Positions 11,893-63,508 of a DNA stretch of 64,000 bases are shown here, piece by piece (positions within the stretch are counted from its first letter, which is position 1; each line of letters begins with the position of its first letter). The DNA is from Sphingobacteriales bacterium 44-15. Lineage in GTDB: Bacteria; Bacteroidota; Bacteroidia; Chitinophagales; Chitinophagaceae. Under the pieces are notes generated by a model that was not told the origin of the DNA, ran no database searches, and saw only the letters and a list, made by a program, of their open reading frames with translations. Made by a program: the position numbers and the translations under genes. The stretch spans positions 248,001 through 312,000 of the forward strand of contig MKWG01000043.1 of NCBI GenBank assembly GCA_001899685.1. The letters are read 5' to 3'.

Positions 11893-12394
11893 AGGGAATT
11901 TCAGCTATCCGTAACAGAGGAGTTCCGAAGGAAAATATTAGCTTCTGATTTGTAAAATTTTCCCGGTTTCTTCTTTTCCATACAAGACAATAATGAAAAG
12001 CACATCATCCGGTTTTCGCTGTTCAAACAGGTGCAAGAATAAACGTTATATCCAAAAAAATTTAAATTATAAAATTAAAAATGTATTTCGTCTGCCTGCA
12101 TTGTTGATTTATTTACCGCCACAAGCACAATAAGAAAATAAAATACACAATGGACGGCTTACCGGTGAAGTTTAATGAAAATAGCGTCACTAAACTCTGG
12201 ACTTTCGGGGTTAAGGAAGGAAGTGTCAGGCTCAGGGTATCGCCAGTCTAAGAATATTAGTCCTTCAAGGCCTGCTATACAGTTCAGAGTGGTTTATATG
12301 ACAGCAAAAACGGTAGCTGCGGTAAGGCAGAGGGGAATTAACCTGAGTAATTATAGTGAAGTACAACGGTTTGGCGGATTATAGCATAGCCAAC
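11893..12394. other. AT-rich spacer with no supported gene
   Basis: The spacer from sucD to GH92 is about 710 bp. An ATG at 12150 opens a 33-codon frame (MDGLPVKFNENSV...) and an ATG at 12175 opens a 69-codon frame in another phase that ends at 12384. Neither has a recognisable domain, and their overlap suggests a decayed element rather than a gene. Part of the region just after sucD is very AT-rich. Confidence 0.4.
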
Positions 12395-12454
12395 GTTATG
12401 TCAAGCGTGAAACGGCAGGCGATAAACGTGAAGTACTCACATTTATCATCTCAC
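12395..12454. repeat. Heptad-word array, ATGTCAA subfamily
   Basis: Begins GTTATGTCAAGCGTGAAACG and continues in 7-base register to ATCTCAC. The opening motif recurs at 61775-61811 and, inverted, at 34621-34655 and 63477-63507. Confidence 0.65.
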
Positions 12455-12560
12455 TTTTTACAAAGAAATACGACAAATTATTGTTGACGTAGCGCTAATA
12501 TATCCCTTCCCCCGTTTTACCGCCGGCATGCTTTATATTCGCAATACAATTTCAATACGT

Positions 12561-14858
12561 ATGAAAAAATATATTGCGATCCTTTGCTGCCTCGTGATGC
12601 ATGCCGGGCTCCACGCTCAAATGGTTAACCAGGTAACAGATCCTGTAGACTGGGTAAACCCGCTGATGGGCACCGATTCAAAGCCCAGTCTCTCTAACGG
12701 TAATACCTACCCTGCAATAGCCCTTCCCTGGGGCATGAATATGTGGACGCCGCAAACAGGGAAGATGGGTGATGGATGGCAGTATCAATATACCGCTGAG
12801 AAGATCAGAGGATTTAAGCAGACACACCAGCCTTCTCCCTGGATGAACGACTATGGACAATTCAGCATTATGCCTGTAGCGGGCAGGCTGGCATTCAGGG
12901 AAGAGGACAGAGCCAGTTGGTTCAGCCATAAGGCCGAGGTTGCCAAGCCTTATTATTATAGCGTATACCTTGCCGATCACGATATTACCGCCGAGATCAC
13001 ACCCACAGAGCGCGCCGCGGCTTTCCGGTTTACCTTTCCGCAAACAGACAGCGCTTTTGTTGTGGTGGATGCTTTTGACAAAGGCTCGTATGTAAAGATC
13101 ATCCCGCAAGAAAGAAAAATTATCGGCTACTCCACCAGGAACAGCAAAGGCGTGCCTGACAATTTTAAAAATTATTTTGTCATTGTATTCGACAAGCCGT
13201 TTGCAAATGCAGGCATATTTGAAGGGGATAAGCTTGACCTTACCAGACTCGAAACACAAGCCGGTCATACAGGCGCTGTGGTGAAGTTTAAAATATTTAA
13301 CCGTGGCGACCAGGTAAATGCAAGAGTGGCTTCTTCATTTATCAGTCCCGCGCAGGCAGAGATCAATCTCAGAGAGACCGGTGCTGACAGCTTTGAAATG
13401 ATCGAGAAAAAAGGACGGGATATATGGAACAACACGCTGGGGCGCATTCTTGTAGAAGGCGGTACCATTGACCAGGTAAGGACTTTCTATTCTACCTTAT
13501 ACAGAATGGTGTTTTTTCCCAATAAATTATATGAAAAAGATGCTGCCGGGGCAATCGTGCACTACAGCCCTTACACAGGTAAAGTGCTGCCTGGATATAT
13601 GTTTGGCGGCACCGGCTTTTGGGATACCTTCCGCGCCTTATACCCGTTCCTGAATCTTGTGTATCCTTCCATAAATAAAGAGATGCAGGAAGGGTTGATC
13701 AACGATTATAAAGAAGGAGGCTATTTGCCCGAGTGGAGCAGTCCCGGCTATCGTGCTGTAATGGTAGGCAACAATTCTGCTTCTATAGTGGCAGACGCTT
13801 ATATCAAAGGACTCCGCGATTATGATATTGAAACGCTGTATGAAGCGCTGAAGCATGGCGCCAATACAGAAGGTCCGCAAGGCACAGGGCGCAAGGGAGT
13901 TGAATACTATAACAAACTCGGCTATGTGCCCTATGATGTGAAGATCAATGAAAGTGCGGCAAGAACGCTGGAGTATGCCTACGATGATTTCTGTATTTAC
14001 CAGTTGGGAAAAGCATTGAACCGCCCTGCGGAAGAGCTCAGGTTATATGCCACGCGCAGCCGGAATTACAAAAATCTTTTTGACAGATCCACCCGCCTGA
14101 TGCGCGGTAAAAACCAGGACGGGAGCTTTCAACAGCCCTTCAATCCTTTCAAATGGGGCGACGCCTTTACGGAAGGTAACAGCTGGCATTACTCGTGGAG
14201 TGTTTTTCACGATATAAAAGGATTGTCTGACCTGATGGGAGGAAGAGAACAGTTCACAAAAATGCTGGATTCCGTTTTTGTAATGCCTCCGGTTTTCGAT
14301 GATAGCTATTATGGATCCACTATTCATGAAATAAGAGAAATGCAGATAGCCGGCATGGGACAATACGCTCACGGCAATCAGCCTATCCAGCACATGGCCT
14401 ATTTATATAATTATGCCGGGCAGCCCTGGAAAACACAATACTGGGTCCGAGAGATCATGAACAGGATGTATAAGCCCACACCCGACGGCTATTGCGGAGA
14501 TGAGGATAACGGGCAGACTTCAGCATGGTACGTATTCTCGGCATTGGGCTTTTATCCTGTGTGTCCTGCAACAGATCAGTATGTGCTGGGAGCGCCGCTT
14601 TTTAAAAAAGCCACTATACAACTGGAGAATGGAAAACAATTTGTAATTGCTGCACCTGCCAACAGCGACCAGGCAAGATATATACAGTCGGCACAACTGA
14701 ACGGGAAAAACCATGATAAAAACTGGATCGGTCAGCCGGATATCCAAAAGGGCGGAATATTTGAGCTGGGCATGGGCATCCGTCCCAATACTGTCAGGTG
14801 CACCAAAGAAGAATCGTCGCCGTATTCGTTCTCAGCTTCGGCAGATGAGGTGAAATAG
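12561..14858 (+). CDS. GH92 family glycosidase (alpha-mannosidase type), secreted
   Basis: A 765-residue enzyme from the ATG at 12561 (MKKYIAILCC), followed by a signal peptide ending near LHAQ. The WVNPLMGTDS and NGNTYPAIALPWG segments are the standard GH92 N-terminal marks. Further conserved blocks are GYLPEWSSPGYRAVMVGNN, FTEGNSWHYSWSVFHD and, near residue 645, CGDEDNGQTSAWYVFSALG, which contains the acidic residues of the catalytic centre. GH92 enzymes are calcium-dependent exo-alpha-mannosidases acting mostly on N-glycan or yeast mannan linkages. No SusC/SusD pair is adjacent, so this is not a classic polysaccharide utilisation locus. The neighbours downstream are two Gfo/Idh proteins and a lyase. 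Confidence 0.94.
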   Translation: MKKYIAILCCLVMHAGLHAQMVNQVTDPVDWVNPLMGTDSKPSLSNGNTYPAIALPWGMNMWTPQTGKMGDGWQYQYTAEKIRGFKQTHQPSPWMNDYGQFSIMPVAGRLAFREEDRASWFSHKAEVAKPYYYSVYLADHDITAEITPTERAAAFRFTFPQTDSAFVVVDAFDKGSYVKIIPQERKIIGYSTRNSKGVPDNFKNYFVIVFDKPFANAGIFEGDKLDLTRLETQAGHTGAVVKFKIFNRGDQVNARVASSFISPAQAEINLRETGADSFEMIEKKGRDIWNNTLGRILVEGGTIDQVRTFYSTLYRMVFFPNKLYEKDAAGAIVHYSPYTGKVLPGYMFGGTGFWDTFRALYPFLNLVYPSINKEMQEGLINDYKEGGYLPEWSSPGYRAVMVGNNSASIVADAYIKGLRDYDIETLYEALKHGANTEGPQGTGRKGVEYYNKLGYVPYDVKINESAARTLEYAYDDFCIYQLGKALNRPAEELRLYATRSRNYKNLFDRSTRLMRGKNQDGSFQQPFNPFKWGDAFTEGNSWHYSWSVFHDIKGLSDLMGGREQFTKMLDSVFVMPPVFDDSYYGSTIHEIREMQIAGMGQYAHGNQPIQHMAYLYNYAGQPWKTQYWVREIMNRMYKPTPDGYCGDEDNGQTSAWYVFSALGFYPVCPATDQYVLGAPLFKKATIQLENGKQFVIAAPANSDQARYIQSAQLNGKNHDKNWIGQPDIQKGGIFELGMGIRPNTVRCTKEESSPYSFSASADEVK

Positions 14859-14862
14859 CTAT

Positions 14863-14942
14863 GGGCTATGGGCGGTGGGCTATCAGCTATGAGTGTCTGC
14901 TAACAGCCCAATGCTCGCGGCTCACAGCCGACAGCTCACCGC
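14863..14942. repeat. Heptad-word array, GGGCTAT/AGCTCAC vocabulary
   Basis: Eleven units in 7-base register, from GGGCTAT repeats to AGCTCAC-type units, starting 4 bp after the GH92 stop. It shares words with the array at 31276-31366. Confidence 0.65.
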
Positions 14943-15006: not shown

Positions 15007-16446
15007 ATGAGCCAAAAATCAAAATCAAACAATTCTCGCAGGAAGTTTATACAAAGTACTTCCCTCGCGGCAGCAGGGTATTTCATTGTGCCCCGCCATG
15101 TATTGGGCAAAGGGTATGTTGCCCCAAGTGATAAATTAAATATTGCCGGTATTGGTGCAGGAGGAAAAGGAGAAAGCGACCTTCATGAGTTTTCCAAGAG
15201 CCCTAAGGTTAACATCGTTGCAATGGCGGATGTGGATGACCGCCAATCGGTAAAATCCCGTAAGCGTTTCCCTAAAGCAAAATATTATAAAGATTTCAGG
15301 GAAATGCTTGCCAAAGAAAAAAACAATATAGACGCCTGCTCTATCTCTACTCCCGATCACACCCACGCCGTTGCTACAATGGCTGCCATGCAATTAGGCA
15401 AGCATGTATATACACAAAAGCCGCTTACTCATGATATATGGGAAGCACGCATGCTTACACAGGCTGCTAAAAAATATAAAGTAGTTACACAAATGGGTAA
15501 CCAGGGTGGCTCCGGCGACGGTGTAAGAAGGATGAAAGAATTATATGACTCCGGACTGATCGGCGACGTATATAAAGTAGAATCATGGACCAACCGTCCG
15601 GTATGGCCACAGGGTATAGCTTCTCCTACCGGCAAGTTTGATGTACCTAAAGAGCTCGACTGGAATCTCTGGCTGGGCACTGCGCCTGCAATGGATTATA
15701 ATCCCGGCTACCTGCCTTTTAACTGGAGAGGCTGGTGGCGCTTCGGTACAGGCGCATTGGGAGATATGGCCTGCCATATCATGGATCCTATTTACCGGAT
15801 ACTGCCTATAGACTTCCCTGACTCAGTAGAATGCAGCGTGGCAAACAGTTGGAGCGGGTTCTTCCAGGAAACGGATAACCCTGAAAGCGCTCCCGCAGCT
15901 TCAGCCATTCACCTCAACTATCCCCGCAAAGATGGAAAGGGAACGATCAAAGTAAGCTGGTATGACGGCGGTATAATGCCGGAAAGACCAGATGAGCTTC
16001 AGCCCGGAGAACCTTTTGGCAACTGGGATGGCGGCGTATTATTTATCGGCACAAAAGGAAAGCTGCTGGCAGACTGCTATGGAGCCAACCCGAGATTATT
16101 ACCGCTTACAAGAGCAGAAGAAGCAAAGGTTGTTCCTGAAACTATTAAGCGTGTACCTGAAGGACACTATATTCAGTGGGTAAATGCCTGCATCGCCGGC
16201 TACGGCAATGCAGAGACCAGCTCCAACTTCGACTATGCGGGTCCGTTCGTTGAAAGCATATTGATCTCCAACCTGGCTATCCGCAGCTATGCATTGAAAA
16301 ATCCAAGTGGCAAAGACTGGGAAGATAAGTATCTCGGGCGCAAAAAGCTGTTGTGGGATGCCAAAAATATGAGGATCACCAACTTTGAAGATGCCAACCA
16401 GTTTGTGAAACGACAATACAGGGCTCCGTGGAGTCTTAATGTATAA
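15007..16446 (+). CDS. Gfo/Idh/MocA-family oxidoreductase, Tat-exported (duplicate A)
   Basis: A 479-residue protein with a Tat signal (SRRKFIQSTSLAAAGYF), then PRHVLGKGYVAPSDKLN and the Rossmann segment NIAGIGAGGKGESDL. The CSISTPDHTHAVATMAA motif and the catalytic-lysine region TQKPLTHDIWEA are typical. The C-terminal half has many conserved tryptophans (LDWNLWLGTAP, WRGWWRFGTGALGDM) seen in a large group of periplasmic Bacteroidota and Planctomycete oxidoreductases. It is closely similar along its whole length to the next gene, so the two arose by tandem duplication. Substrate is unknown; proximity to GH92 and a lyase suggests a glycan-derived sugar. Confidence 0.92.
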   Translation: MSQKSKSNNSRRKFIQSTSLAAAGYFIVPRHVLGKGYVAPSDKLNIAGIGAGGKGESDLHEFSKSPKVNIVAMADVDDRQSVKSRKRFPKAKYYKDFREMLAKEKNNIDACSISTPDHTHAVATMAAMQLGKHVYTQKPLTHDIWEARMLTQAAKKYKVVTQMGNQGGSGDGVRRMKELYDSGLIGDVYKVESWTNRPVWPQGIASPTGKFDVPKELDWNLWLGTAPAMDYNPGYLPFNWRGWWRFGTGALGDMACHIMDPIYRILPIDFPDSVECSVANSWSGFFQETDNPESAPAASAIHLNYPRKDGKGTIKVSWYDGGIMPERPDELQPGEPFGNWDGGVLFIGTKGKLLADCYGANPRLLPLTRAEEAKVVPETIKRVPEGHYIQWVNACIAGYGNAETSSNFDYAGPFVESILISNLAIRSYALKNPSGKDWEDKYLGRKKLLWDAKNMRITNFEDANQFVKRQYRAPWSLNV

Positions 16447-16587: not shown

Positions 16588-18042
16588 ATGAATAAGAAGA
16601 TCAAAAGCAGGCAGGCAGATTCCCGCAGGAAATTTCTCAGGAACACTTCAGTTGCCGCCGCCGGTTATTTTATTGTACCCCGCCATGTGCTGGGCAGGGG
16701 GTATATCGCTCCGAGCGATAAATTAAATATCGCGGGCATTGGAGCAGGAGGAAAGGGAGGAGGCGATCTCAAAAATTTCTCTCAAAGCCCCAAAGTAAAT
16801 ATAGTAGCGCTTTGTGATGTAGACGACAGGCGTTCTGCAGAATCAAGAAAGCGTTTTCCGAAAGCCAGGTACTACAAGGATTTCCGGGAGATGCTGGAGA
16901 AGGAAAAGAACAATATAGATGCCTGTTCCATATCCACTCCTGATAATACGCATGCAGTAGCCACGATGGCAGCCATGCAATTAGGCAAGCATGTGTATAC
17001 TCAAAAACCTTTAACCCACGATATTTACGAGGCCCGCATGCTGACGGAAGCGGCCAAGCGATATAAAGTAATTACCCAAATGGGCAACCAGGGAGGATCC
17101 GGTGATGGCGTACGCCGTATGAAAGAGCTTGTAGATGCAGGGCTGATAGGAGAAGTACATACCGTGCACACCTGGACCAACCGCCCGGTATGGCCGCAAG
17201 GGCTGCCCACCCCCACGGGAAAGTTTGATGTTCCTAAAGAGCTGGACTGGAATTTATGGATCGGTCCGGCGAAGATGATTGATTACAACCCCGCTTACCT
17301 GCCCGGTAAATGGCGTGGATGGTATGCTTTCGGCACCGGCTCACTGGGCGATATGGCCTGTCATATCATGGACCCGGTATACCGTATCCTGCCGATTGAT
17401 TACCCTTCAGATTTTGAATGCAGCGTCACCGGCAACTGGGCTGGTATGTGGGATGAAGGCAATTTTGCCGACAGTTTCCCTACATCCTGTATCATTCGTT
17501 TAACCTATCCCCGCAAAGACGGGAAAGGCGTGATAAAAGTAAACTGGATGGACGGAGGTCTCCTTCCTGCCCGTCCCGATGAATTATTACCTGGAGAACC
17601 AATGGGCAACTGGGATGGCGGTGTAATATTTGAAGGTACCAAAGGCAAGGTAATGTGTGACTGTTACGGCGCCAACCCCAGGCTCCTGCCCACACGGCTG
17701 ATGAAAGAGGCGACCCTTCCTCCCGAAACTATTGAACGTGTACCCGGGGGCGAAGATGGCCACTACCTGCAATGGGTAAACGCATGCATAGATGGCTACA
17801 GCAAAGGAAAAACCAGCTCGCCATTTGAGTATGCCGGCCCTTTTGCAGAAAGTATACTGATCGGTAATCTTGCCATCCGCAGCTGGTGGCTGAAAAATCC
17901 CTCTTTAAAAGACTGGGACGACAAATATCTCGGCAGGAAGAAACTGCTTTGGGATGCTAAAAATATGAAGGTCACTAATTTTGATGAGGCCAACCAGTTT
18001 GTAAGGCGTGAATACAGGAATGGGTGGAGCCTCGGTGTTTAA
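16588..18042 (+). CDS. Gfo/Idh/MocA-family oxidoreductase, Tat-exported (duplicate B)
   Basis: A 484-residue protein with the same layout as duplicate A: Tat motif (SRRKFLRNTSVAAAGYF), PRHVLGRGYIAPSDKLN, NIAGIGAGGKGGGDL, CSISTPDNTHAVATMAA and TQKPLTHDIYEA. By eye most positions are identical to the upstream copy; differences cluster in the middle (for example FADSFPTSCIIRLTYPRKD against ESAPAASAIHLNYPRKD) and near the C-terminus. A noticeable change is STPDHTH to STPDNTH beside the active site. An intrinsic terminator lies upstream and another downstream, so regulation could differ from copy A. The product is probably periplasmic and NAD(P)-dependent; substrate unknown. Confidence 0.92.
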   Translation: MNKKIKSRQADSRRKFLRNTSVAAAGYFIVPRHVLGRGYIAPSDKLNIAGIGAGGKGGGDLKNFSQSPKVNIVALCDVDDRRSAESRKRFPKARYYKDFREMLEKEKNNIDACSISTPDNTHAVATMAAMQLGKHVYTQKPLTHDIYEARMLTEAAKRYKVITQMGNQGGSGDGVRRMKELVDAGLIGEVHTVHTWTNRPVWPQGLPTPTGKFDVPKELDWNLWIGPAKMIDYNPAYLPGKWRGWYAFGTGSLGDMACHIMDPVYRILPIDYPSDFECSVTGNWAGMWDEGNFADSFPTSCIIRLTYPRKDGKGVIKVNWMDGGLLPARPDELLPGEPMGNWDGGVIFEGTKGKVMCDCYGANPRLLPTRLMKEATLPPETIERVPGGEDGHYLQWVNACIDGYSKGKTSSPFEYAGPFAESILIGNLAIRSWWLKNPSLKDWDDKYLGRKKLLWDAKNMKVTNFDEANQFVRREYRNGWSLGV

Positions 18043-20330: not shown

Positions 20331-20463
20331 GTGAGAGGTGAAAGGCCAAACGTGAGAAGTGAAACGATAAACGTGAAAAATGAGAAAGCCCTGAAACCTT
20401 TAACAAGGCGTGGGAAGTGAAAAGTCAAAAGTGAATTCCTTACGCCTTATACCTTATCCCTCA
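20331..20463. repeat. Longest heptad-word array (19 units)
   Basis: Nineteen consecutive 7-base units in unbroken register fill the spacer between the divergent heparinase-like and nnr genes and stop 10 bases before the nnr ATG. The first part uses GTGAGAG, GTGAAAC and GATAAAC; the middle AAGTGAA; the end CCTTA-type words. The rest of this 304-bp spacer (20170-20330) shows no further feature. Confidence 0.75.
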
Positions 20464-20473
20464 TATTACCATC

Positions 20474-22061: not shown

Positions 22062-24257
22062 ATGGACAAATTGTTCTACCTCGTGCCCGTAATGGGACTC
22101 CTCGGATTACTCTATACATATCTGAAATTCAACTGGGTATCTAAGCAGGATGCCGGTTCAGACCGTATGAAAGAGATCAGCAATTATATTGCTGAAGGCG
22201 CTATGGCTTTCCTCAAAGCCGAGTGGAAGATACTGGGTTATTTTGTAGTGATAGTAGCAATACTCCTTGGGGTAATGGCGCAGGCCAATCCTCATTCTCA
22301 CTGGTCAATTGCCATTTCGTTCATAGCAGGCGCTGTATTCAGCGCAACCGCCGGCTATATCGGTATGCGGATAGCTACCAAAAGCAATGTACGCACTGCA
22401 CAGGCTGCCAAAACAAGCCTGAGCAAAGCCCTGTCTGTCTCCTTCACCGGCGGCTCTGTAATGGGGCTTGGCGTAGCGGGACTGGCAGTTTTAGGCTTAG
22501 GTACCGTGTTTATCATATTATACATGCAATTTGCGGGCGGGCTTACTGCCGGCACTCCTGAATATGCGGAGGGTATGCTCAAAGCTATAGAAGTGCTTAC
22601 CGGCTTTTCGCTTGGCGCTGAAAGTATAGCATTGTTTGCACGCGTAGGCGGCGGTATCTATACCAAAGCTGCCGACGTGGGCGCCGACCTGGTAGGAAAA
22701 GTGGAAGCCGGCATTCCTGAAGACGATCCGCGCAACCCTGCAACCATAGCAGATAATGTCGGTGACAATGTAGGCGATGTGGCCGGCATGGGCGCCGACC
22801 TTTTTGGCTCTTATGTGGCAACAGTACTGGCAACCATGGTGCTGGGACAGGAAACAAAGTCGACAGATAATTTCGGCGGGCTCGCTCCGGTATTACTTCC
22901 CATGCTCATAGCCGGTGCAGGTATCCTGTTTTCCATTGTAGGCACATGGTTTGTGAAAGTGAGCGACAGCGCAGGTATCAATACCAACAATGTGCAAAAA
23001 GCGCTTAACATGGGCAACTGGGGTTCTATTATTTTAACAGCGGTCGTTTCCATAGGACTGGTATATTACATATTACCCGAGACAATGACCCTTCGCGGGC
23101 ACGACTTCACCAAATGGGGCGTGCTCGGCGCTATAGCAGTAGGATTGGTTGTAGGCGCTTTGATGTCCATCATCACCGAATACTATACGGCAATGGGCAA
23201 GCGCCCGGTGCTTTCCATTATCCAGCAGTCTTCCACCGGTCATGCTACCAATGTGATCGGGGGACTGGCGGTAGGTATGGAATCTACCTTCCTCCCTATC
23301 CTTGTGCTGGCAGGCGGAATTTACGGTTCTTATGAATTTGCAGGATTATACGGCGTGGCGATAGCAGCGGCAGGCATGATGGCCACTACTGCCATGCAGC
23401 TGGCAATAGACGCTTTTGGACCAATTGCAGATAATGCCGGCGGTATAGCGGAGATGAGTGAATTACCCAAAGAAGTAAGGGAAAAAACCGACGTGCTTGA
23501 TGCTGTTGGTAACACCACTGCCGCTACAGGTAAAGGTTTTGCGATAGCTTCGGCAGCCCTCACCGCCCTGGCGCTTTTTGCGGCATTTGTTGGCGTGGCA
23601 GGTATTGAAGGCATTGATATATATAAAGCAAAAGTGCTGGCATCCCTCTTTGTGGGCGGTATGATCCCCTTTATTTTCTCCTCGCTCGCCATACGTGCAG
23701 TGGGGGAAGCAGCCATGAGCATGGTAGAAGAAGTACGTCGCCAGTTCCGCACTATTCCCGGTATTATGGAAGGCACAGGCAAGCCCGAATATGATAAATG
23801 CGTGGCAATCTCTACCGATGCCTCTATCAAAAAAATGATGCTTCCCGGCGCCATAGCTATTGTAGCGCCATTGATTATAGGCTTCTTACTTGGTCCCGAA
23901 GCGCTCGGCGGATTCCTTGCAGGCGCTACCGTAAGCGGTGTACTGATGGGTATGTTCCAGAACAATGCCGGCGGCGCATGGGACAATGCCAAGAAATCCT
24001 TTGAAAAAGGCGTTGAGATCAACGGGCAGATGTACTACAAAAAATCAGAGCCGCACAAAGCATCCGTAAGCGGCGATACCGTGGGAGACCCTTTTAAAGA
24101 CACTTCCGGTCCTTCCATGAATATTCTTATCAAACTTATGTCTATAGTATCGCTTGTTATCGCACCAACCCTGGCGCAGGTCTTCGGCACCAAGGCACAC
24201 ACCGATATGACAACACAGCGGAACATTCAAAAGACGGAGATAGTAAAGAGCAAATGA
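22062..24257 (+). CDS. hppA: Membrane-bound ion-pumping pyrophosphatase
   Basis: A 731-residue protein with about 16 membrane helices. It couples pyrophosphate hydrolysis to ion export. The catalytic loops are plain: [20 protein letters not shown], then [20 protein letters not shown] and GADLFGSY, and in the C-terminal half [11 protein letters not shown]. The segment [10 protein letters not shown] has alanine where K+-independent enzymes carry lysine (GNTTKA), so this is the K+-dependent class. Most K+-dependent enzymes in anaerobes and Bacteroidota pump Na+, but which ion is moved cannot be settled by eye. It has its own predicted promoter and a heptad array beginning at its stop codon. Confidence 0.97.
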
Positions 24258-24388
24258 GGCATAAGGAGGAAGGGATAAAGCATGATCTAAAAATATTACA
24301 GGTTACAGGCTTCAGGTAACCTCACTTTTACCGTTTGACGTTTCCTTTACCCCTTATGCCTTCCTCCTTATACCTTACCCCTTCATCT
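24256..24388. repeat. Heptad-word array (19 units)
   Basis: Nineteen 7-base units in one register, starting at the hppA stop codon. It opens with AAGGAGG-type words, passes through ACAGGTT/ACAGGCT, then GTTTGAC, then TTACCCC/TTATGCC units that complement the opening. It thus joins three vocabularies that occur separately in other arrays. Confidence 0.75.
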
Positions 24389-24432
24389 TTATTGATCTAT
24401 ATCAACCAACATCTTTATACACTGATTTCCAG

Positions 24433-24463
24433 GGGGCAGCAATCAAATTGCTGTCCTTTTTTT
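24433..24463 (+). terminator. Probable intrinsic terminator
   Basis: GGGCAGCAAT pairs with ATTGCTGTCC (one mismatch) around a 3-base loop, then a run of seven T. It would end the nnr-hppA transcript. The following 266 bp up to 24729 show no further feature. Confidence 0.75.
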
Positions 24464-24729
24464 CTGCCCGGCAGCCCCTGTTCTGCTTTTCAGCGGTAAA
24501 TATTTCGATAAATACTTTTATTGGTGATATAAGATTTACTATCTTCGGCGGTAATTATTCTAAAGCCTATATCCCCTGTTACTGAAATTCCCCTTATCCT
24601 AAATTCAACGTCTTTCTGTAAAACATTTCAGGCATTCTATTTCCATTATTCAATGATAATACCGCAGCATTCATTTGCCTGCTGAGCTTATATGCAACAC
24701 CGGTTATAATTGCCTAAAATCACAAAAGC

Positions 24730-30159: not shown

Positions 30160-31278
30160 GTGAGCAGCGAGCGCAACAAAACGAATAAGCAGCAACAAGA
30201 GCCGGAAAAAACTTTTTCCTATCCGCCTCCTTTTGATTTCAAAACGCCTAAAAAGCTGGGATATTATTTCCCTGCCGAATTTGCGCCGCACACCGCCACA
30301 TGGCTAAGCTGGCCGCACAAAGAAGCATCCTGGCCCGGCAAGATCAATACCATATTTGCCCCTTATGCAGCATTTATCAAAGCAGTGTCTGCGGGGGAAA
30401 GCGTTCATATCAATGTAAACAATGAAGCAATGAAAGCCGCCGCAACAGCTCACCTGGAAGAAGCCGGCGTGGATATGAATACCATTGCATTCTACCTGCA
30501 CCCCACCAATGATGCCTGGTGCCGGGATCATGGTCCTGCATTTCTCATTAACCCGCAGGCAGCGCAAAAAAAGATCATCGTTGACTGGGGATACAATGCC
30601 TGGGGAGATAAATATCCCCCCTACGACCTCGACGACATTATACCCTCCCTCATCGGGGGAGACTATAATATCCCGGTGTTCAGCCCCGGCATTGTAATGG
30701 AAGGCGGTTCCGTGGAATTTAACGGGAAAGGAACACTGCTTACCTCAACGGCATGCCTGCTCAACCCCAACCGCAACCCACAGCTCAGCCGGGAACAGAT
30801 TGAAACCTATTTACAGCATTATTACGGCGTGGACCAGATACTGTGGGTAAGCGAAGGTATAGTGGGAGATGATACAGACGGTCATATTGACGACACGGTA
30901 AGATTTGTAAACGAAGATACCGTGCTGACGGTGGTAGAGGAAAATAAACATGATGAAAACTATGCACTGCTTCAAACCAACCTGAGAGAGCTGGAACAGA
31001 TGCGCCTGCCCAACGGAAAGCAACTAAATATCATAGAGCTTCCCATGCCTTCTGCAGTAGTGTATGAAGGACAGCGGCTACCGGCCTCTTACGCTAACTT
31101 CTATATCAGCAATGCCGCTGTGGTAGTGCCTACCTATCGCTGTAAGAATGATGATAAGGCATTGCAGATCATACAGGATTGTTTTCCCTCCAGGAAAGTG
31201 ACGGGGATTGACTCCACGGACATTATATGGGGACTGGGGAGCTTTCATTGCCTGAGCCAGCAGGAGCCGATGGCGTGA
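30160..31278 (+). CDS. aguA: Agmatine deiminase
   Basis: A 372-residue enzyme of the guanidine-modifying (PAD) fold, starting with GTG at 30160; the next ATG lies far inside the domain. Conserved parts are AEFAPHTATWLSWPHKEASW, DAWCRDHGPAF, VMEGGSVEFNG, DDTDGHIDD and the catalytic loop GLGSFHCLSQQEP with C364. It converts agmatine to N-carbamoylputrescine, the substrate of the upstream amidase. The N-terminal ~22 residues are polar (ERNKTNKQQQEPEK) and not part of the core. A heptad array starts exactly at its stop codon. Confidence 0.94.
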   Translation: MSSERNKTNKQQQEPEKTFSYPPPFDFKTPKKLGYYFPAEFAPHTATWLSWPHKEASWPGKINTIFAPYAAFIKAVSAGESVHINVNNEAMKAAATAHLEEAGVDMNTIAFYLHPTNDAWCRDHGPAFLINPQAAQKKIIVDWGYNAWGDKYPPYDLDDIIPSLIGGDYNIPVFSPGIVMEGGSVEFNGKGTLLTSTACLLNPNRNPQLSREQIETYLQHYYGVDQILWVSEGIVGDDTDGHIDDTVRFVNEDTVLTVVEENKHDENYALLQTNLRELEQMRLPNGKQLNIIELPMPSAVVYEGQRLPASYANFYISNAAVVVPTYRCKNDDKALQIIQDCFPSRKVTGIDSTDIIWGLGSFHCLSQQEPMA

Positions 31279-31366
31279 AAGCAGTGGGCTGTGAGCTGTC
31301 AGCAGTGTGCTCACAGTTCACAGCTCATTGCTCATTTCTCACAGCTCATTGCCCATAGCTGTCTCT
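31276..31366. repeat. Heptad-word array, TCACAGC vocabulary
   Basis: Thirteen units in 7-base register whose first unit contains the aguA stop codon. Words such as TGTGAGC and AGTGTGC are followed by TCACAGC, TCATTGC and related complements. Confidence 0.7.
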
Positions 31367-33021: not shown

Positions 33022-33172
33022 GCCACGAATTCCTGCGGTCCGCAAGCGGACTGATTTATAAACGCAACAAAGCCACGAATGCACGAATGTTTTTAATATA
33101 TTTATTCGTGCATTCGTGGCTTTGTTGTATCCCAAAAATCATCATGCCGCACAGTCCGCTGGAATTCGTGGC
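33022..33172. repeat. Long hairpin repeat of CACGAAT words, copy 1
   Basis: A 151-bp inverted element. Its inner arms are perfect over 24 bp (33065-33088 against 33104-33127) around a 15-base loop. Outer arms are imperfect: GCCACGAATTCC near the left end faces GGAATTCGTGGC at the right end. The left half recurs at 60010-60078. Confidence 0.85.
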
Positions 33173-33906: not shown

Positions 33907-34569
33907 ATGAAAGCAACAAATGTAATTTTTGACATGGACGGATTACTGATAGACTCCGAGCCGCTTTGGGAAGAAGCAGGTGCGGAGCTATTGCAGTCTT
34001 ATGGAGTTGAACTGACATCCGAACAATACCAAAGCTCTACAGGCTTGCGCACAAGGGAATGGATCACCCACTGGTTCAATCATTTTCATATTGACAATAA
34101 ATATGTGGAATCTGCCACGGCACAGATCATCAATGCCGCAATAGAAAAGATTGGAGCCAGGGGCGCAGGTATGCCGGGCGTGTCTCAGATATTTTCCTTT
34201 TTACAGGAGGAAGGGATCACTATGGCTATTGCTACTTCTTCTCCGCTACAGCTCGTAGATATCGTGGTGGAAAAGCTCAATATTGGTCAATACCTCACCT
34301 GCATGGTCTCTGCGGAAGATCTGCCTTACGGCAAGCCTCATCCTGCGGTATACCTTGACTGCGCCGCCCGCCTCGGGGTAACTCCCTCACAGTGTATCTG
34401 TTTTGAAGATTCATTTAACGGCATGATCGCAGTGAAAGCGGCAAGGATGAAATGTGTTGTTATACCGGCGCCCCATGTGCATCACCAAAACCGTTGGGAT
34501 GCTGCCGATCTCAAGCTCCGGAGCCTGCTTGATTTTGGAGCGAAAGAGCTGGAGCTATGTGAACAATAA
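33907..34569 (+). CDS. HAD phosphatase, HxpB (YniC)-like
   Basis: A 220-residue HAD hydrolase of the beta-phosphoglucomutase subclass. Motif I is FDMDGLLIDSEP (D9, D11), motif II the TSS in IATSSPLQLVDI, motif III the lysine in YGKPHPAVYLDCA, and motif IV ICFEDSFNGM. The cap is the helical C1 type. The pattern fits sugar-phosphate phosphatases such as E. coli HxpB (2-deoxyglucose-6-phosphate or hexitol phosphatase), but substrates of such enzymes are broad. It is followed by a heptad array and is convergent with rpsA. Confidence 0.88.
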   Translation: MKATNVIFDMDGLLIDSEPLWEEAGAELLQSYGVELTSEQYQSSTGLRTREWITHWFNHFHIDNKYVESATAQIINAAIEKIGARGAGMPGVSQIFSFLQEEGITMAIATSSPLQLVDIVVEKLNIGQYLTCMVSAEDLPYGKPHPAVYLDCAARLGVTPSQCICFEDSFNGMIAVKAARMKCVVIPAPHVHHQNRWDAADLKLRSLLDFGAKELELCEQ

Positions 34570-34572
34570 TTT

Positions 34573-34655
34573 GTCTCACTTCTTTGTGAGAAGTGAGAAG
34601 ATAAGCGTGAGGAGCTCACATTTGTCGTCTGTCGTCTCACGTTTGACATAATACC
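34573..34655. repeat. Heptad-word array, GTGAGAA vocabulary with ATGTCAA end
   Basis: From TCTCAC words through GTGAGAA units and GATAAGC to TCTGTCG and TCTCACG. It ends with TTTGACATAAT, the inverse of the ATGTCAA motif found in four other arrays. Confidence 0.65.
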
Positions 34656-34674
34656 AGAAGATTTGAGAAAATAA

Positions 34675-37273: not shown

Positions 37274-37332
37274 ATGTCAAATGTGAGAGGTGGGATGTGA
37301 ATGTCTTGTCGTTTCACCTTTCACGTCTCACG
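37274..37332. repeat. Heptad-word array, ATGTCAA subfamily
   Basis: Opens with ATGTCAA and ATGTGAG, passes AGGTGGG and ATGTGAA, and returns through TCGTTTC, ACCTTTC and ACGTCTC. It fills the spacer between two convergent genes almost completely. Confidence 0.7.
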
Positions 37333-37336
37333 ACAA

Positions 37337-49058: not shown

Positions 49059-49150
49059 GTGAATAGACAAACGTGAGAGGTGAAACGTGAGATAGCCTGT
49101 AACTTGAAACCTCTTCCTGTCTTACCACTTATCCCTTACCCCTTACCACT
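49059..49150. repeat. Heptad-word array (13 units) between convergent genes
   Basis: Runs GTGAATA, GACAAAC, GTGAGAG, GTGAAAC, GTGAGAT, then AGCCTGT, AACTTGA and finally TTACCAC, TTATCCC, TTACCCC. It reaches the stop codon of the FGGY kinase and joins three vocabularies. Confidence 0.75.
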
Positions 49151-53559: not shown

Positions 53560-53622
53560 GTTACAGGTTTCAGGCTATCCCTGCAACATGTAACCTGTAA
53601 CTTGCAACCTCCCATTCCCTAA
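53560..53622. repeat. Heptad-word array, GTTACAG/CTGTAAC vocabulary
   Basis: Nine units from GTTACAG and GTTTCAG to ATGTAAC, CTGTAAC and TTGCAAC. The last unit contains the stop codon of the TIM-barrel gene. Confidence 0.7.
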
Positions 53623-54515
53623 TCAAAAATCTTTTTCATCCCGTCAATGATCACTTTCAACCTTTCCCTCTCTCCACCCGGTACTTCTGCGGAAGCCCAG
53701 CCGTTGTACCCTATTTTCCCCAGGGCTTCCACAATTACAGGCCAGTTATTATCTCCTTCCATGAGCTCCACATCAAAACCTTTCCACAGTCCCTCGTCAT
53801 TTTGCTTTTTGCGGCTGTATTCTTTTACATCTAATTTCATGATCCTTTTGTTCAGTATCTCGATCCACTGTTCCGGCCAGCCATAGCGGAGGATATTGCC
53901 GATATCAAAATACCAGCCTACCAGCGGGTGGTTGATCTCATCCACATATCTTGCCGCTTCCAGCGGGCTGATCAGGAAATTATTCCATACATTTTCGATG
54001 GCTATCTTAATGCCTGTTTTTTCGGCATACGGAATGAGATTACGGATCTCTTTTTGCGTGCGGGTATATGCGTCGGCATAGCTGATCTTGTCGTTCACCA
54101 CTCCTGCCACCAGCAGCACCGTGGTACCGCCATACATCTTACAATCATTGAGCGACTGTATTACAGTATTGAAACATTTTTGTCTTACAGCCGGATCAGG
54201 AGAGGACAGCGGAGATTTCCAGTGCTCGGAGTTGACCACGCCGGGGATAAGCAGCCCTGTCTTATCACGCGCTGCAAGAATTTCTTTATGATCATAATTG
54301 TGCGGTGAGCTGAACTCCACGCCATCATACCCCAATTCTTTAAGCATCTTAAATTTATCCATCAGCGGCATATCACCCTTCACCATTTCTATCTTTAAGC
54401 TCTTTTTTATTTTAGGCTTGAAAGCTTTTTGCTGCACTGCTGCTGCTGACGGGAAACCAATACCTGCCCCTGCGGCAATAAGGCTGCTGTTTTTAATGAA
54501 TGCTCGTCTTTGCAT
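53619..54515 (-). CDS. Sugar phosphate isomerase/epimerase-like TIM-barrel protein, Tat-exported
   Basis: A 298-residue protein with a Tat motif (QRRAFIKNSSLIAAG) and a xylose-isomerase-like TIM barrel. Metal-ligand glutamates and histidines are seen in DGVEFSSPHNYDH, IAIENVWNNFL, WYFDIGN and WASAEVPGGERER. Homologues epimerise or isomerise sugars, inosose or hydroxypyruvate. The start lies 5 bp after the upstream Gfo/Idh gene's stop (54521), so they form one operon, as often seen in Bacteroidota. The substrate is unknown and is presumably the same compound the oxidoreductase handles. Confidence 0.9.
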   Translation of the reverse strand: MQRRAFIKNSSLIAAGAGIGFPSAAAVQQKAFKPKIKKSLKIEMVKGDMPLMDKFKMLKELGYDGVEFSSPHNYDHKEILAARDKTGLLIPGVVNSEHWKSPLSSPDPAVRQKCFNTVIQSLNDCKMYGGTTVLLVAGVVNDKISYADAYTRTQKEIRNLIPYAEKTGIKIAIENVWNNFLISPLEAARYVDEINHPLVGWYFDIGNILRYGWPEQWIEILNKRIMKLDVKEYSRKKQNDEGLWKGFDVELMEGDNNWPVIVEALGKIGYNGWASAEVPGGERERLKVIIDGMKKIFD

Positions 54516-57454: not shown

Positions 57455-57503
57455 GGGATAAGGGGGGTAAGGGATAAGGCGGAAGGCCTTACCCCTTACC
57501 CCC
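57455..57503. repeat. Heptad-word array filling a convergent spacer
   Basis: Units GGGATAA, GGGGTAA, GGGATAA, GGCGGAA, GGCCTTA, CCCCTTA starting directly after the GH29 stop. The stop codon of the convergent flavoprotein lies inside a CCCCTTA unit. The two halves form a strong stem. Confidence 0.75.
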
Positions 57504-58737
57504 GACTCCCCACACCTCTTCCCGCTATCCAGCCGCTTGTCCAGGCGTGCTGAAAATTAAAGCCGCCGGTAATACCGTCTACATCCAGCACTTCCCCGGC
57601 AAAGTAAATACCGGGTTGCTTTTTACTTTGCATGGTATGCACGTCCACTTCCGATAATGCTACTCCACCGCAGGTAACAAATTCTTCTTTGAAAGTCGTT
57701 TTCCCTTTTACTTCAAATTCCTGCATGGTAAGCAACCGCATCAGTTCATTTTGCTGTTTGCCCGGAAGGCTGCTCCATCGCTGTTCCTTATCAATACCTG
57801 CCTGGTCAAGCAAATACTGCCATAGCCTTGCCGGCAAGGCAAAAGGATTGCCTGCATGCATTTTCCGGGCGGCGTGCTGTAGCCGCAGGTCATTCCATTC
57901 CTGCCTCAGTAAATGTTCAGTATACCGGGGCAGCCAGTTTACAGCTATCTCAAAATGATAATGCCGTTCGGATAATTCTTTTGCGCCCCATGCGCTCAGC
58001 CGGAGTATAACAGGACCACTCATACCCCAATGAGTGATCAACAGCGGGCCCTGTTCTTTTAAGTTTGTGCCCTTTATTTTTACAACAGCATCGGGTACGC
58101 TTATCCCCATCAGCGCCGTAACAGCGTTCCCTGGCATATTAAAAGTGAATAAGGAAGGCAATGGTGAATGAATGGTATGTCCCAATGCTCTTATCCATTC
58201 AAACCGGGCGTCTTTGGGATAGCCGCCGCAGGCAACGCAAACAAAATCGGCAAAGAGCTTTTCGCGTCCGGCTATGTGCAGGTAAAACCCTGTATTACCA
58301 TCACCGGCAGCAGCTTCTACAGCGCTTACGCCTGCATTGGTAACAATCTCCACATGATGTAAGGCAGCTTCTTTAAGCAGGCATTCCACAATAGTTGACG
58401 AGGTATCGGTAACAGGGAACATTCTCCCGTCGTCCTCAGTTTTCAATGCTACGCCACGCTCCAGGAACCAGGCAATAGTATCCCGGGTAAAGAACCGGTG
58501 AAAAGCTTTTCTCACAAAATGCATACCCCTCGGGTATTTCCTGATCATCTCCTCAATATCAAAGCATGCATGTGTAACATTGCACCTGCCTCCTCCGCTG
58601 ACGCTGACCTTTGATAACAGCTTACTGCTTTTTTCCAGTATCGTTACTTTCAGACCGGGACTCATCGCTGAAGCATTGATCGCCGTAAAAAATCCGGCAG
58701 CTCCTCCGCCTATGACCACCAAATGTTTTTGCTTCAT
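57496..58737 (-). CDS. YhiN/HI0933-type flavoprotein
   Basis: A 413-residue FAD-binding protein. It has the dinucleotide motif VVIGGGAAGFFTAINA at the start, SGGGRCNVTHA (residues 47-57), and the C-terminal GIYFAGEVLDVDGITGGFNFQHAWTSG block. The middle domain has GMSGPVILRLSAWGA. The family is widespread; the biochemical role is unsettled, with tRNA or redox functions suggested for relatives. Length is normal. The stop codon lies within a heptad array shared with the convergent fucosidase gene. Confidence 0.92.
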   Translation of the reverse strand: MKQKHLVVIGGGAAGFFTAINASAMSPGLKVTILEKSSKLLSKVSVSGGGRCNVTHACFDIEEMIRKYPRGMHFVRKAFHRFFTRDTIAWFLERGVALKTEDDGRMFPVTDTSSTIVECLLKEAALHHVEIVTNAGVSAVEAAAGDGNTGFYLHIAGREKLFADFVCVACGGYPKDARFEWIRALGHTIHSPLPSLFTFNMPGNAVTALMGISVPDAVVKIKGTNLKEQGPLLITHWGMSGPVILRLSAWGAKELSERHYHFEIAVNWLPRYTEHLLRQEWNDLRLQHAARKMHAGNPFALPARLWQYLLDQAGIDKEQRWSSLPGKQQNELMRLLTMQEFEVKGKTTFKEEFVTCGGVALSEVDVHTMQSKKQPGIYFAGEVLDVDGITGGFNFQHAWTSGWIAGRGVGSRG

Positions 58738-60009: not shown

Positions 60010-60191
60010 GATAGCCACAAATTCCGGCGGTCCACAAGCGGACTGATTTATAAATACAATAGCCACGAATGCACAAATATATAATGCATTTTGATTCCTT
60101 TATTCGTGCATCCGTGGCCGTATCTTCTTCTCTTGTACAGAATGCACGAATGAGTTTTTTCTGTTGACCATAATTCGTGCATTTGTGACTA
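60010..60191. repeat. Hairpin repeat of CACGAAT words, copy 2
   Basis: 60010-60078 aligns with 33019-33088 with few differences, including the GGTCC-CAAGCGGACTGATTTATAAA stretch. The right side is diverged: TATTCGTGCATCCGTGGCC at 60100-60118 and a second pair at 60139-60191. It lies between two convergent genes. Confidence 0.8.
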
Positions 60192-61045: not shown

Positions 61046-61129
61046 CGTGAGAAGAGAAACGTGAGAGGAGAAATGTGAGAATTGAGAGTGAAATTTTCAC
61101 GTCTGACGTTTCACATCTCACGTTTCACG
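61046..61129. repeat. Heptad-word array (12 units), strong palindrome
   Basis: Seven purine-rich units (CGTGAGA, AGAGAAA, CGTGAGA, GGAGAAA and others) are followed by five complementary units (TTTCACG, TCTGACG, TTTCACA, TCTCACG). It sits 34 bp before the PepSY-like gene. Confidence 0.75.
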
Positions 61130-61162
61130 ATCAAAAGTATCATAAACTCAAAATCATTCAAG

Positions 61163-61774: not shown

Positions 61775-61832
61775 CTAGTATCATGTCAAACGTGAAACGG
61801 CAGACGATAAATTATAGTTGACATGACACTAG
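61775..61832. repeat. Heptad-word array with inverted ends, ATGTCAA subfamily
   Basis: Opens CTAGTATCATGTCAA and closes TTGACATGACACTAG, 15-bp arms with one mismatch. The interior units are CGTGAAA, CGGCAGA and CGATAAA, as at 12395. Confidence 0.7.
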
Positions 61833-63420: not shown

Positions 63421-63508
63421 CTTTGTGAGAGGTGAGACTTGCCTACCGGTTTACCTGCCGTAGGCATGGCAGGCAAGTCTGTCGTTTCACGTTTGACATA
63501 ACACTAGG
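63421..63508. repeat. Heptad-word array with inner inverted repeat, ATGTCAA subfamily
   Basis: GTGAGAG-type words lead to an inner hairpin (GACTTGCCT against AGGCAAGTC) and then TCTGTCG, TTTCACG and TTTGACATAACACTAG. The last part is the inverse of the CTAGT-ATGTCAA motif at 61775. The rest of the 730-bp spacer (63129-63858) is AT-rich with no supported gene; a short open minus-strand stretch near 63363-63445 may be a gene remnant. Confidence 0.65.

Follow-up and report, generated by a model that had tools for sequence, protein, structure and literature searches.

Degenerate seven-base arrays between the genes of a Chitinophagaceae bacterium, and a MITE-like family that carries a minority of them

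The gaps between genes in Sphingobacteriales bacterium 44-15 hold a seven-base register that is real and genome-wide. It takes the form of arrays of 7-nt words whose spelling varies while the register is kept. We think it probable that these arrays are stretches of seven-base words that evolve by slippage and by hairpin-templated rewriting, that a MITE-like element carries some of them, and that they are mainly tolerated. Twenty such sites had been listed in an earlier note on one window of this genome (the whole stretch of DNA that was analysed, 64,000 nucleotides of contig MKWG01000043.1).

The seven-base register in one genome and in other Bacteroidota

Our sample was 1.66 Mb of the 6.0-Mb genome (the window plus stretches of five contigs) in two parts, of which the later-fetched 800 kb served as a replication. 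Genes were called with our own script and no published caller, and the thresholds for arrays were not uniform across analyses (10.5, 11, or 13). The earlier note had proposed autocorrelation at lag 7 as a check, and in the intergenic DNA of the first 864 kb it was well above 20 dinucleotide shuffles (z = 16.7). Lags 14 and 21 were raised too (z = 18.7 and 12.8), and at lag 28 the signal was gone (z = 1.5). Lags 2 and 3 stood out as well (z = 14.6 and 15.5), with weaker rises at 5, 6, 8, 9, 12, and 15.

Lag-7 segments numbered 81 in the first part and 77 in the replication, or 158 in 1.66 Mb; every other lag in the range 4–13 had at most 6 in either part and no more than 7 over both. The class is thus as widespread as the earlier note had supposed, and its description of words that vary within a kept register was also borne out: the period is exactly 7, with both fixed and free columns, as in heterogeneous heptads. 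Of 82 lag-7 segments, 73 were intergenic. Genome-wide, the GTGARARGTGARANGTGARAN word family had 1057 matches with up to two mismatches (overlaps counted), versus 22 for the reversed pattern.

We assigned arrays to word families using our own patterns in a fixed order, after excluding arrays with at least half of their length inside called genes (these were also excluded from the vocabulary and surrogate tests). The 249 arrays comprise GTGARAN (99), GTGGTAA-like (36), AGCTATG (24), GTGAATG (22), GTTACAG (21), ATTTGAG (17), and other words (30). By eye, long arrays are frequently mosaics of blocks. Words are common to several loci and to a sister genome (G003), with a mean share within one mismatch of 0.089–0.114, versus 0.023–0.038 for shuffled words. 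This sharing of vocabulary cannot tell spread from common constraint.

Within the window, 17 of the 19 testable sites had a best lag-7 score with p ≤ 0.05 (500 shuffles). The other two, 12395 and 63421 (both p = 0.07), are both MITE-like copies. The twentieth site, 18115, was too short for the shuffle test after clipping and has a TRF score of 57. The twenty sites are a mixture of several kinds, and the features that we mapped are:

20331..20387, plus strand: block 1 of the focal array; GTGARAN-type heptads, lag-7 score 14.3
20410..20464, plus strand: block 2 of the focal array; GTGARAN-type words, then CCTTAYN-type, lag-7 score 14.4, 2 nt off block 1
12391..12497, plus strand: MITE-like copy with type A right end; terminal inverted repeat (TIR) pair of 107 nt with 3 and 2 mismatches, no lag-7 segment at threshold 8
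34550..34656, minus strand: type A MITE-like copy that has heptad arms; TIR pair of 107 nt with 3 and 2 mismatches, RNA folding z = -2.25
61776..61831, plus strand: short MITE-like copy of 56 nt; TIR pair with 2 and 1 mismatches
63487..63506, minus strand: intact end TAGTGTTATGTCAAACGTGA of the MITE-like copy at site 63421; exact match, opposite end degraded
37274..37336, plus strand: GTGARAN-type hairpin with convergent genes on either side; p = 0.006
61046..61130, plus strand: heptad hairpin with no TIR, the spacer being divergent by our own gene calls; inverted repeat, RNA folding z = -5.28
31281..31359, plus strand: AGCTCAC-type heptad hairpin directly 3' of an agmatine deiminase-like gene; lag-7 score 23.7, RNA folding z = -5.36 (31276-31366)
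49059..49150, plus strand: mosaic array with GTGARAN, CTGTAAC, and CTTACCN blocks, read from the sequence, in a convergent spacer; p = 0.002
57464..57516, plus strand: GGGATAA-type heptad hairpin immediately 3' of a gene; lag-7 score 16.6, RNA folding z = -3.80 (57455-57500)
24256..24392, plus strand: mosaic heptad array 3' of a pyrophosphatase gene (stop at 24257); p = 0.002
14858..14893, plus strand: GCTATGG-type array, a lag-7 segment that begins on the stop codon of a GH92 gene
53560..53610, no strand assigned: CTGTAAC/GTTACAG-type array at the 3' end of gene 53619-54515, which is on the minus strand

The focal array had been described as 19 units in unbroken register. Instead, it consists of two lag-7 blocks whose phases are offset by 2 nt; their starts are 79 nt apart, and 22 nt of unrelated sequence lies in between. 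The claim that arrays fold on themselves applies to many of them, which are palindromic, but weakly to the focal array (z = -1.71; 13/200 shuffles equal it). At five other sites, the RNA folding z was -5.28 (61046), -5.36 (31276), -3.80 (57455), -2.25 (34549), and -2.20 (49059).

Four of the twenty sites are MITE-like copies or remnants (12391-12497, 34550-34656, 61776-61831, and one ending at 63506). The copy at 34550..34656 overlaps the 3' end of a gene whose stop is at 34569. The start of the 37274 array resembles the inner border of the element (TGTCAAATGTGAG), so this array is possibly another remnant, judging by that resemblance. Downstream of the 24256 array, at about 24431-24465, we saw by eye a terminator-like hairpin with a T tract. 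In the window, Rfam gave no matches at the gathering threshold, and a tRNA search found none.

Several other features of the window are recorded here. The gene that adjoins the focal array encodes an NAD(P)HX dehydratase/epimerase, whose best named relative is from Chitinophagaceae bacterium UBA4857 (52%). The neighboring genes at 15007-16446 and 16588-18042 both have sub-cut-off matches to the same glycoside 3-dehydrogenase-like family, and a T9SS sorting domain is also encoded. The convergent spacers at 33065-33127 and about 60062-60118 hold hairpins of octad-like words (GCACGAAT), with a period unlike the heptads.

Among 80 named loci from other Bacteroidota (1.35 Mb), lag 7 was the commonest of lags 3–21, with 40 segments in 23 loci; the runners-up were lag 21 (22 segments), lag 14 (21), and lag 8 (18). 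Different lineages use different words. We also surveyed 395 genomes from the phylum for one word family. GTGARAN-word patterns matched in 64 of these, which is a patchy distribution, and a large excess over the control was seen only in this genome (307) and in two others from its family (361 and 103). G165 and G382 had high scores, but their controls were equally high. Across 20 named genomes, NTGARAN was far above its control in Fulvivirga imtechensis (337 vs. 8), Filimonas (426 vs. 11), and Parabacteroides (48 vs. 6), and the excess was absent from Pontibacter (3 vs. 28; 1 vs. 16) and several others.

The reversed control pattern scored as high as the pattern itself, or higher, in G165, G196, G287, and G396, which may hold other heptad-like repeats. 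A Chryseobacterium-labelled MAG has a 214-nt degenerate array of TTTACAG/TTCTCAG/TTATCAG (locus L139, 9822-10035), which exceeds any lag-7 segment in the window.

A MITE-like element family and the changes among its copies

A recurring border, TAGTGYTATGTCAAACGTGAAA, led us to an element family with inverted ends TAGTGYTATGTCAA. The elements are 56–210 nt long (modal lengths 107 and 105 nt) and have two types of right end (A and B). The 20-base end (the element end plus CGTGA) has 105 matches with up to two mismatches in the 6.0-Mb genome, versus 0 for the control, and TIR pairs with up to three mismatches number 31 in 1.66 Mb (some of these overlap). Short length, many copies, terminal inverted repeats, and the lack of a gene are the marks of a MITE, and they hold for only 19–40 of the 249 arrays. 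We assembled 67 readings of the element, or 63 copies without double readings (34 of type A and 29 of type B). A lag-7 segment at threshold 8 is present in 32/63 copies and lacking in 31; at lags 5, 6, 8, and 9, the count is 0/63.

The element family accounts for a minority of the arrays. An element end lies within 150 nt of 40/249 arrays (up to three mismatches), and 209/249 have none; at this scale, end matches versus control were 195 vs. 297 at exactly three mismatches, 85 vs. 30 at up to two, and 36 vs. 0 at up to one, so chance matches are frequent at the three-mismatch level. With a stricter end core, the count falls to 19/249. Among GTGARA arrays, 32/99 are near an end at up to three mismatches and 15/99 by the stricter core. 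For the other families the counts are 1/36 (GTGGTAA), 1/21 (GTTACAG), 0/24 (AGCTATG), and 0/17 (ATTTGAG). The condition that would have undone the original description, namely that the arrays are fragments of one repeat family, is therefore true of 19 to 40 of the 249, depending on strictness, but not of the remainder.

We found no paper describing this element family in the literature searched. The element ends are TA, preceded by C in 38/67 readings and followed by G in 39/67. No protein of this genome was over the cut-off for the DDE_3 profile, and there was one sub-threshold DDE_3 fragment. In the sister genomes, we inspected three of nine DDE_3 loci for a partner, and all three lacked matching ends. 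With up to three mismatches, the end occurs 165 times in this genome, 24 times in G003, 17 times each in G006 and G007, 4–8 times in three more species, and at about the control level in the remaining five species.

Some elements sit exactly at the end of a gene. For outward ends with up to two mismatches and within 60 nt of a stop, 13/31 are exactly on the stop codon (12 elements). An element that had inserted in frame within a gene would, however, look the same to an ORF caller, since its TAG would be taken as the stop. None of these outward ends fall in the last 90 coding bases (-90..-1). At up to one mismatch, 7/14 ends are exactly on the stop codon. This share is above the expectation from TA dinucleotides (894/6627 = 0.135; p = 9e-5), but there is no significant excess relative to TAG triplets (269/929; p = 0.08), so the siting may be a mere taste for TAG outside genes. 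Three of the 13 stop-sited proteins could be checked via close relatives, and these aligned to residues 419/420, 379/379, and 444/444, which indicates that they are full length. One element (contig C24, 45006-45111) supplies the stop codon to both of its convergent neighbors.

A second palindromic piece, of the CTGCCTGCC...GGTAGGCAAG type, is nested within MITE-like arms in L278, L282, L295, and others, and in the window at 63421-63506.

Copies with fixed ends can be aligned, and we aligned 16/34 copies of type A and 13/29 of type B, chosen by length and end match. In the heptad stretches of these 29 copies there are five gaps of 7 nt and two of 14 nt (the same deletion), against two 1-nt gaps and one 8-nt insertion (sorted by eye). 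For instance, five near-identical copies are 105 nt long, and in two 91-nt copies, which may represent one event, one arm is shorter by exactly 14 nt. A single 98-nt copy is missing exactly 7 nt, from the arm other than the one that is shortened in the 91-nt copies.

The arms of the type A consensus mismatch at 4/26 pairs. After excluding three copies with gaps in the arms (L263, L268, and L289), we compared the arm pairs of 13 of the 16 aligned copies. Eleven of the 13 resolve 0 or 1 of the four consensus mismatches. The other two resolve them all. L281 is a perfect stem of 26 pairs: six changes in its right arm match the left arm, including two bases that are private to the left arm. L292 has six changes in its left arm, by which 4/4 of the old mismatches are paired and a private base of the right arm is matched, and it has 24/26 pairs. 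We saw no arm conversions beyond these two among the 13 copies compared.

Mismatches that are resolved all or none, and in opposite directions in the two copies, are the trace expected from template switching within a hairpin, going by the available text of a study of hairpin upkeep (PMC8794818). Selection on single pairs should instead leave intermediates. Taken together, 7-nt steps and arm-to-arm copying would let the spelling drift while the register persists. How the arrays are made and kept, which had been put down as unexplained by any known system, is thus partly legible from the copies, but only in part.

Hairpins, gene ends, and other explanations

Ungapped inverted repeats with a score of at least 11 occur in 77 spacers of the first part, of which 48 are heptad spacers. 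Arms pair (score at least 14) with the array's own flank in 20.6% of 136 arrays, versus 6.1% with the flanks of other arrays. On both strands, the purine-rich arm comes first, by 28 vs. 5 and 28 vs. 2 hairpins in the two parts and by 38 vs. 8 among hairpins without MITE ends; because related hairpins share ancestry, these events are not independent. In other genomes, only 20/99 arrays overlap a hairpin with a score of at least 10; 14 of these are purine-first, 2 are pyrimidine-first, and 4 are neither, and no set is significant alone. Another type of hairpin, with a REP-like look and recurring GGATTGAAATCC-like cores, lies at C2 156977 and C2 45705.

The contexts of the arrays had been called roughly even. 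That is so within the window (7 same-strand, 6 convergent, 5 divergent, and 2 unassigned), but not across the 1.66 Mb, where arrays are found in 18/164 divergent, 38/134 convergent, and 110/519 same-strand spacers. The depletion from divergent spacers (18/164 vs. 148/653 for the others) had p = 0.0007 in the first part and was weak in the replication (12/82, p = 0.21). In G003, the corresponding counts are 1/43, 6/33, and 19/144. Arrays start at -5..+20 relative to the stop at 50/89 and 34/85 array-bearing 3' ends in the two parts.

This siting raises the question of whether the arrays are functional, as two-way terminators or as 3' hairpins that need no U tract. In such a scheme, the purine-rich arm would be transcribed first, the hairpin behind the polymerase would pull the RNA out of the hybrid, and the repetition of heptads would let pairing begin in many registers. 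The RNA–DNA hybrid would be weak while the polymerase is in the pyrimidine-rich arm. We consider this, the main rival to our explanation, unlikely to be what the arrays are for, although the clustering just after stops, the shortage in divergent spacers, and the purine-first polarity, which persists without MITE ends, all fit it. Both of the latter have their limits: the shortage is weak in the replication part, and common ancestry inflates the polarity counts.

Canonical terminators are also scarcer at array-bearing 3' ends (19/177 vs. 126/601 of others; Mantel-Haenszel odds ratio 0.49, z = -2.8; 9/186 array-bearing ends were outside the length strata), which also fits. On the other hand, the heptad hairpins do not look like intrinsic terminators, that is, a stem and then a T tract: a run of four Ts in the next 10 bases follows only 6/84 outward heptad hairpin sides, versus 11/94 for other hairpins. 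Among same-strand spacers, folding that beats shuffles (z < -2) is more frequent with heptads (54% of 65) than without (29% of 183), which again favors a terminator, but convergent spacers fold alike with heptads (59% of 17) or without (69% of 32).

Comparisons with relatives also argue against a terminator. The pyrophosphatase gene is followed in six sister species by a terminator-like hairpin and no array (by eye), and here by the array plus a terminator-like hairpin about 175 nt past the stop (by eye). For nine orthologous spacers with an array here, the relative has an array in just 4/16 comparisons (odds ratio 4.2, p = 0.17). These come from 43 pairs with proteins at least 45% identical, which are few and too diverged to show gain or loss at the same site.

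Alternatively, all of the arrays could derive, by decay or recombination, from a single mobile family or a few with similar ends, with slippage playing a minor part. This seems improbable to us. Words and blocks are common to different loci, and a third of the GTGARA arrays (or 15/99 by the stricter core) are near element ends, but four word families are near ends in only 2/98 arrays. The true order of words across loci beats all ten unit-shuffled surrogates in 32/163 arrays without ends, and in 21/40 of the long ones (at least 50 nt); this control is harsh for two-armed arrays, as it mixes both arms.

Stop codons bear on this as well. Genes with an array within 15 nt downstream end in TGA (33), TAG (32), or TAA (15; n = 80), versus TAA (303), TGA (168), and TAG (130) for genes in which no array was found (n = 601). 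The deficit of TAA persists where no MITE end is visible (TAA 13/80), and the stops beside these end-less arrays are TAG-rich too (31/80), which speaks for one family. (Our guess is that arrays might simply be kept away from strongly expressed genes that have TAA and a classical terminator.) Against one family, the heptads of named Bacteroidota use quite different words, and by eye the flanks of the GTGGTAA arrays have no common boundary.

We give very little credence to the idea that the words are kept by a protein with a heptad-phased binding site, or by translation, with stops in all frames (7 mod 3 = 1). The consensus words do include a stop, counting both strands, in 92.6% of the 136 arrays, versus 71% after permuting columns (0/300 permutations reach this), in 93% vs. 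79% for 30 arrays of other relatives (6/300 reach this), and all three sense frames are closed within 42 nt at 57.5% of 80 array-bearing 3' ends versus 15.8% of 601; but the purine-rich composition of the sense strand alone lifts TGA and TAA (2.9 stops expected, 3.8 seen), and the 40 arrays of G003 show no clear excess (80% vs. 72%) and none in frame closure. We rejected the idea of stops in every heptad that close all frames, given the depletion of TAG inside arrays (0.47 of permuted) and the lack of a clear excess in G003.

Known heptad repeats and how the arrays may be kept

Heptads with varying words are not new, contrary to what the earlier note implied. Rehm et al. (2015, PMC4692102) report 186 arrays from a single Xanthomonas genome. 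The words in these are either perfect, (GGGAATC)n, or heterogeneous, (GGGANTN)n; inverted pairs occur in 70 cases, the mean distance from the upstream gene is 28 nt, and few arrays lie between divergent genes. The arrays here belong to a real and broad class of repeats that is similar in kind to these. As in Xanthomonas and in Nostoc (GGGGA(C/T)T), they have fixed and free columns, number well over 100 per genome, and lie in intergenic DNA close to where the upstream gene ends, with few in divergent spacers (this last being weak in the replication part alone); the available text also reports many inverted pairs and lengths and sequences that vary between close relatives. In contrast, the heptads described there have one G-rich word with the potential to form quadruplexes, and those here comprise no fewer than six word families, form mosaics of blocks, have arms that match exactly, and in part sit inside elements with TIRs. 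By reading, the main words here (GTGARAN, GTGGTAA, GTTACAG, AGCTATG, GTGAATG, and ATTTGAG) have no GGG and hence no G tracts for a quadruplex; the variants GGGGTAA and GGGCTAT do carry a run of three Gs.

Other known repeats bear comparison. The tandem heptanucleotides of cyanobacteria are STRRs with near-uniform words, and REP/BIME are palindromes tagged with GTAG or CGTC and linked to the RAYT transposase. The tandem heptanucleotides of Calothrix, mentioned in PMC4692102, have the period of 7 in common with our arrays. The TAACTGA heptamers of Beggiatoaceae, Cyanobacteria, and five Bacteroidetes (MacGregor 2015, PMC4679880) are likewise intergenic direct repeats, but as described in the available text they are a single fixed word, with one-base variants rarely repeated, and are often just upstream of starts. 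BrickBuilt from Porphyromonas gingivalis (Klein et al. 2015, PMC4596501) is also a MITE of Bacteroidota, intergenic, with small inverted ends and internal tandem repeats; it is a minisatellite of 23-nt units with 19 copies in one strain and, in what is available of that report, no heptads. We found no description from Bacteroidota beyond the papers cited here in a literature search that covered few subscription papers. Three things are new as far as our searches go: the large number of vocabularies, the subset inside MITE-like elements, and the traces, read directly, of word steps and arm copying.

In the explanation that we prefer, replication slippage would gain or drop whole words, so that length moves by 7 and the register survives, and point mutations would alter the spelling. 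That slippage might favor a unit of 7 is a published guess (PMC4692102), and the preference of bacteria for units of seven has been an open question since genome surveys (Mrazek 2007, as cited in PMC4692102 and PMC4679880). Within a hairpin, one arm would template the rewriting of the other (quasipalindrome template switching), so the arms would remain complementary despite drift. Monttinen and Loytynoja (2022, PMC8794818) likewise report several stem mismatches that were perfected in a single event by arm copying, in RNA genes rather than, in the text available, in dispersed repeat arrays.

We infer that slippage and template switching caused the changes among the element copies, and the arrays without element ends were probably made in the same way. 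The MITE-like family would have carried heptad arms to many TA sites, presumably by transposition. A good share of landings would fall right on a TAG stop, and there the element's end would restore the gene's stop. Arrays would gather downstream of stops and ahead of the next promoter, where they do the least harm, and would be mainly tolerated and not selected. Against neutrality, the halving of canonical terminators and the strong purine-first polarity fit a selected terminator better, and the arrays may also serve, on the side, as weak two-way terminators or 3' hairpins.

More tentatively, and with doubts that outweigh our confidence, we speculate that these are Bacteroidota-wide self-templating palindromic satellites, in which any heptad that happens to lie opposite its complement undergoes 7-nt amplification and proofreading between arms, so that vocabularies belong to lineages, and that in this genus a TA-targeting MITE took the arms along, lands safely on stop codons, and returns the TAG.

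Dispersed copies with fixed ends provide a reference frame in which the gain and loss of words and the rewriting of arms can be counted directly. They also point to a mutational, non-selective route to long stems that mimic conserved RNA structure. Compensatory pairs in such spacers are therefore no proof of function.
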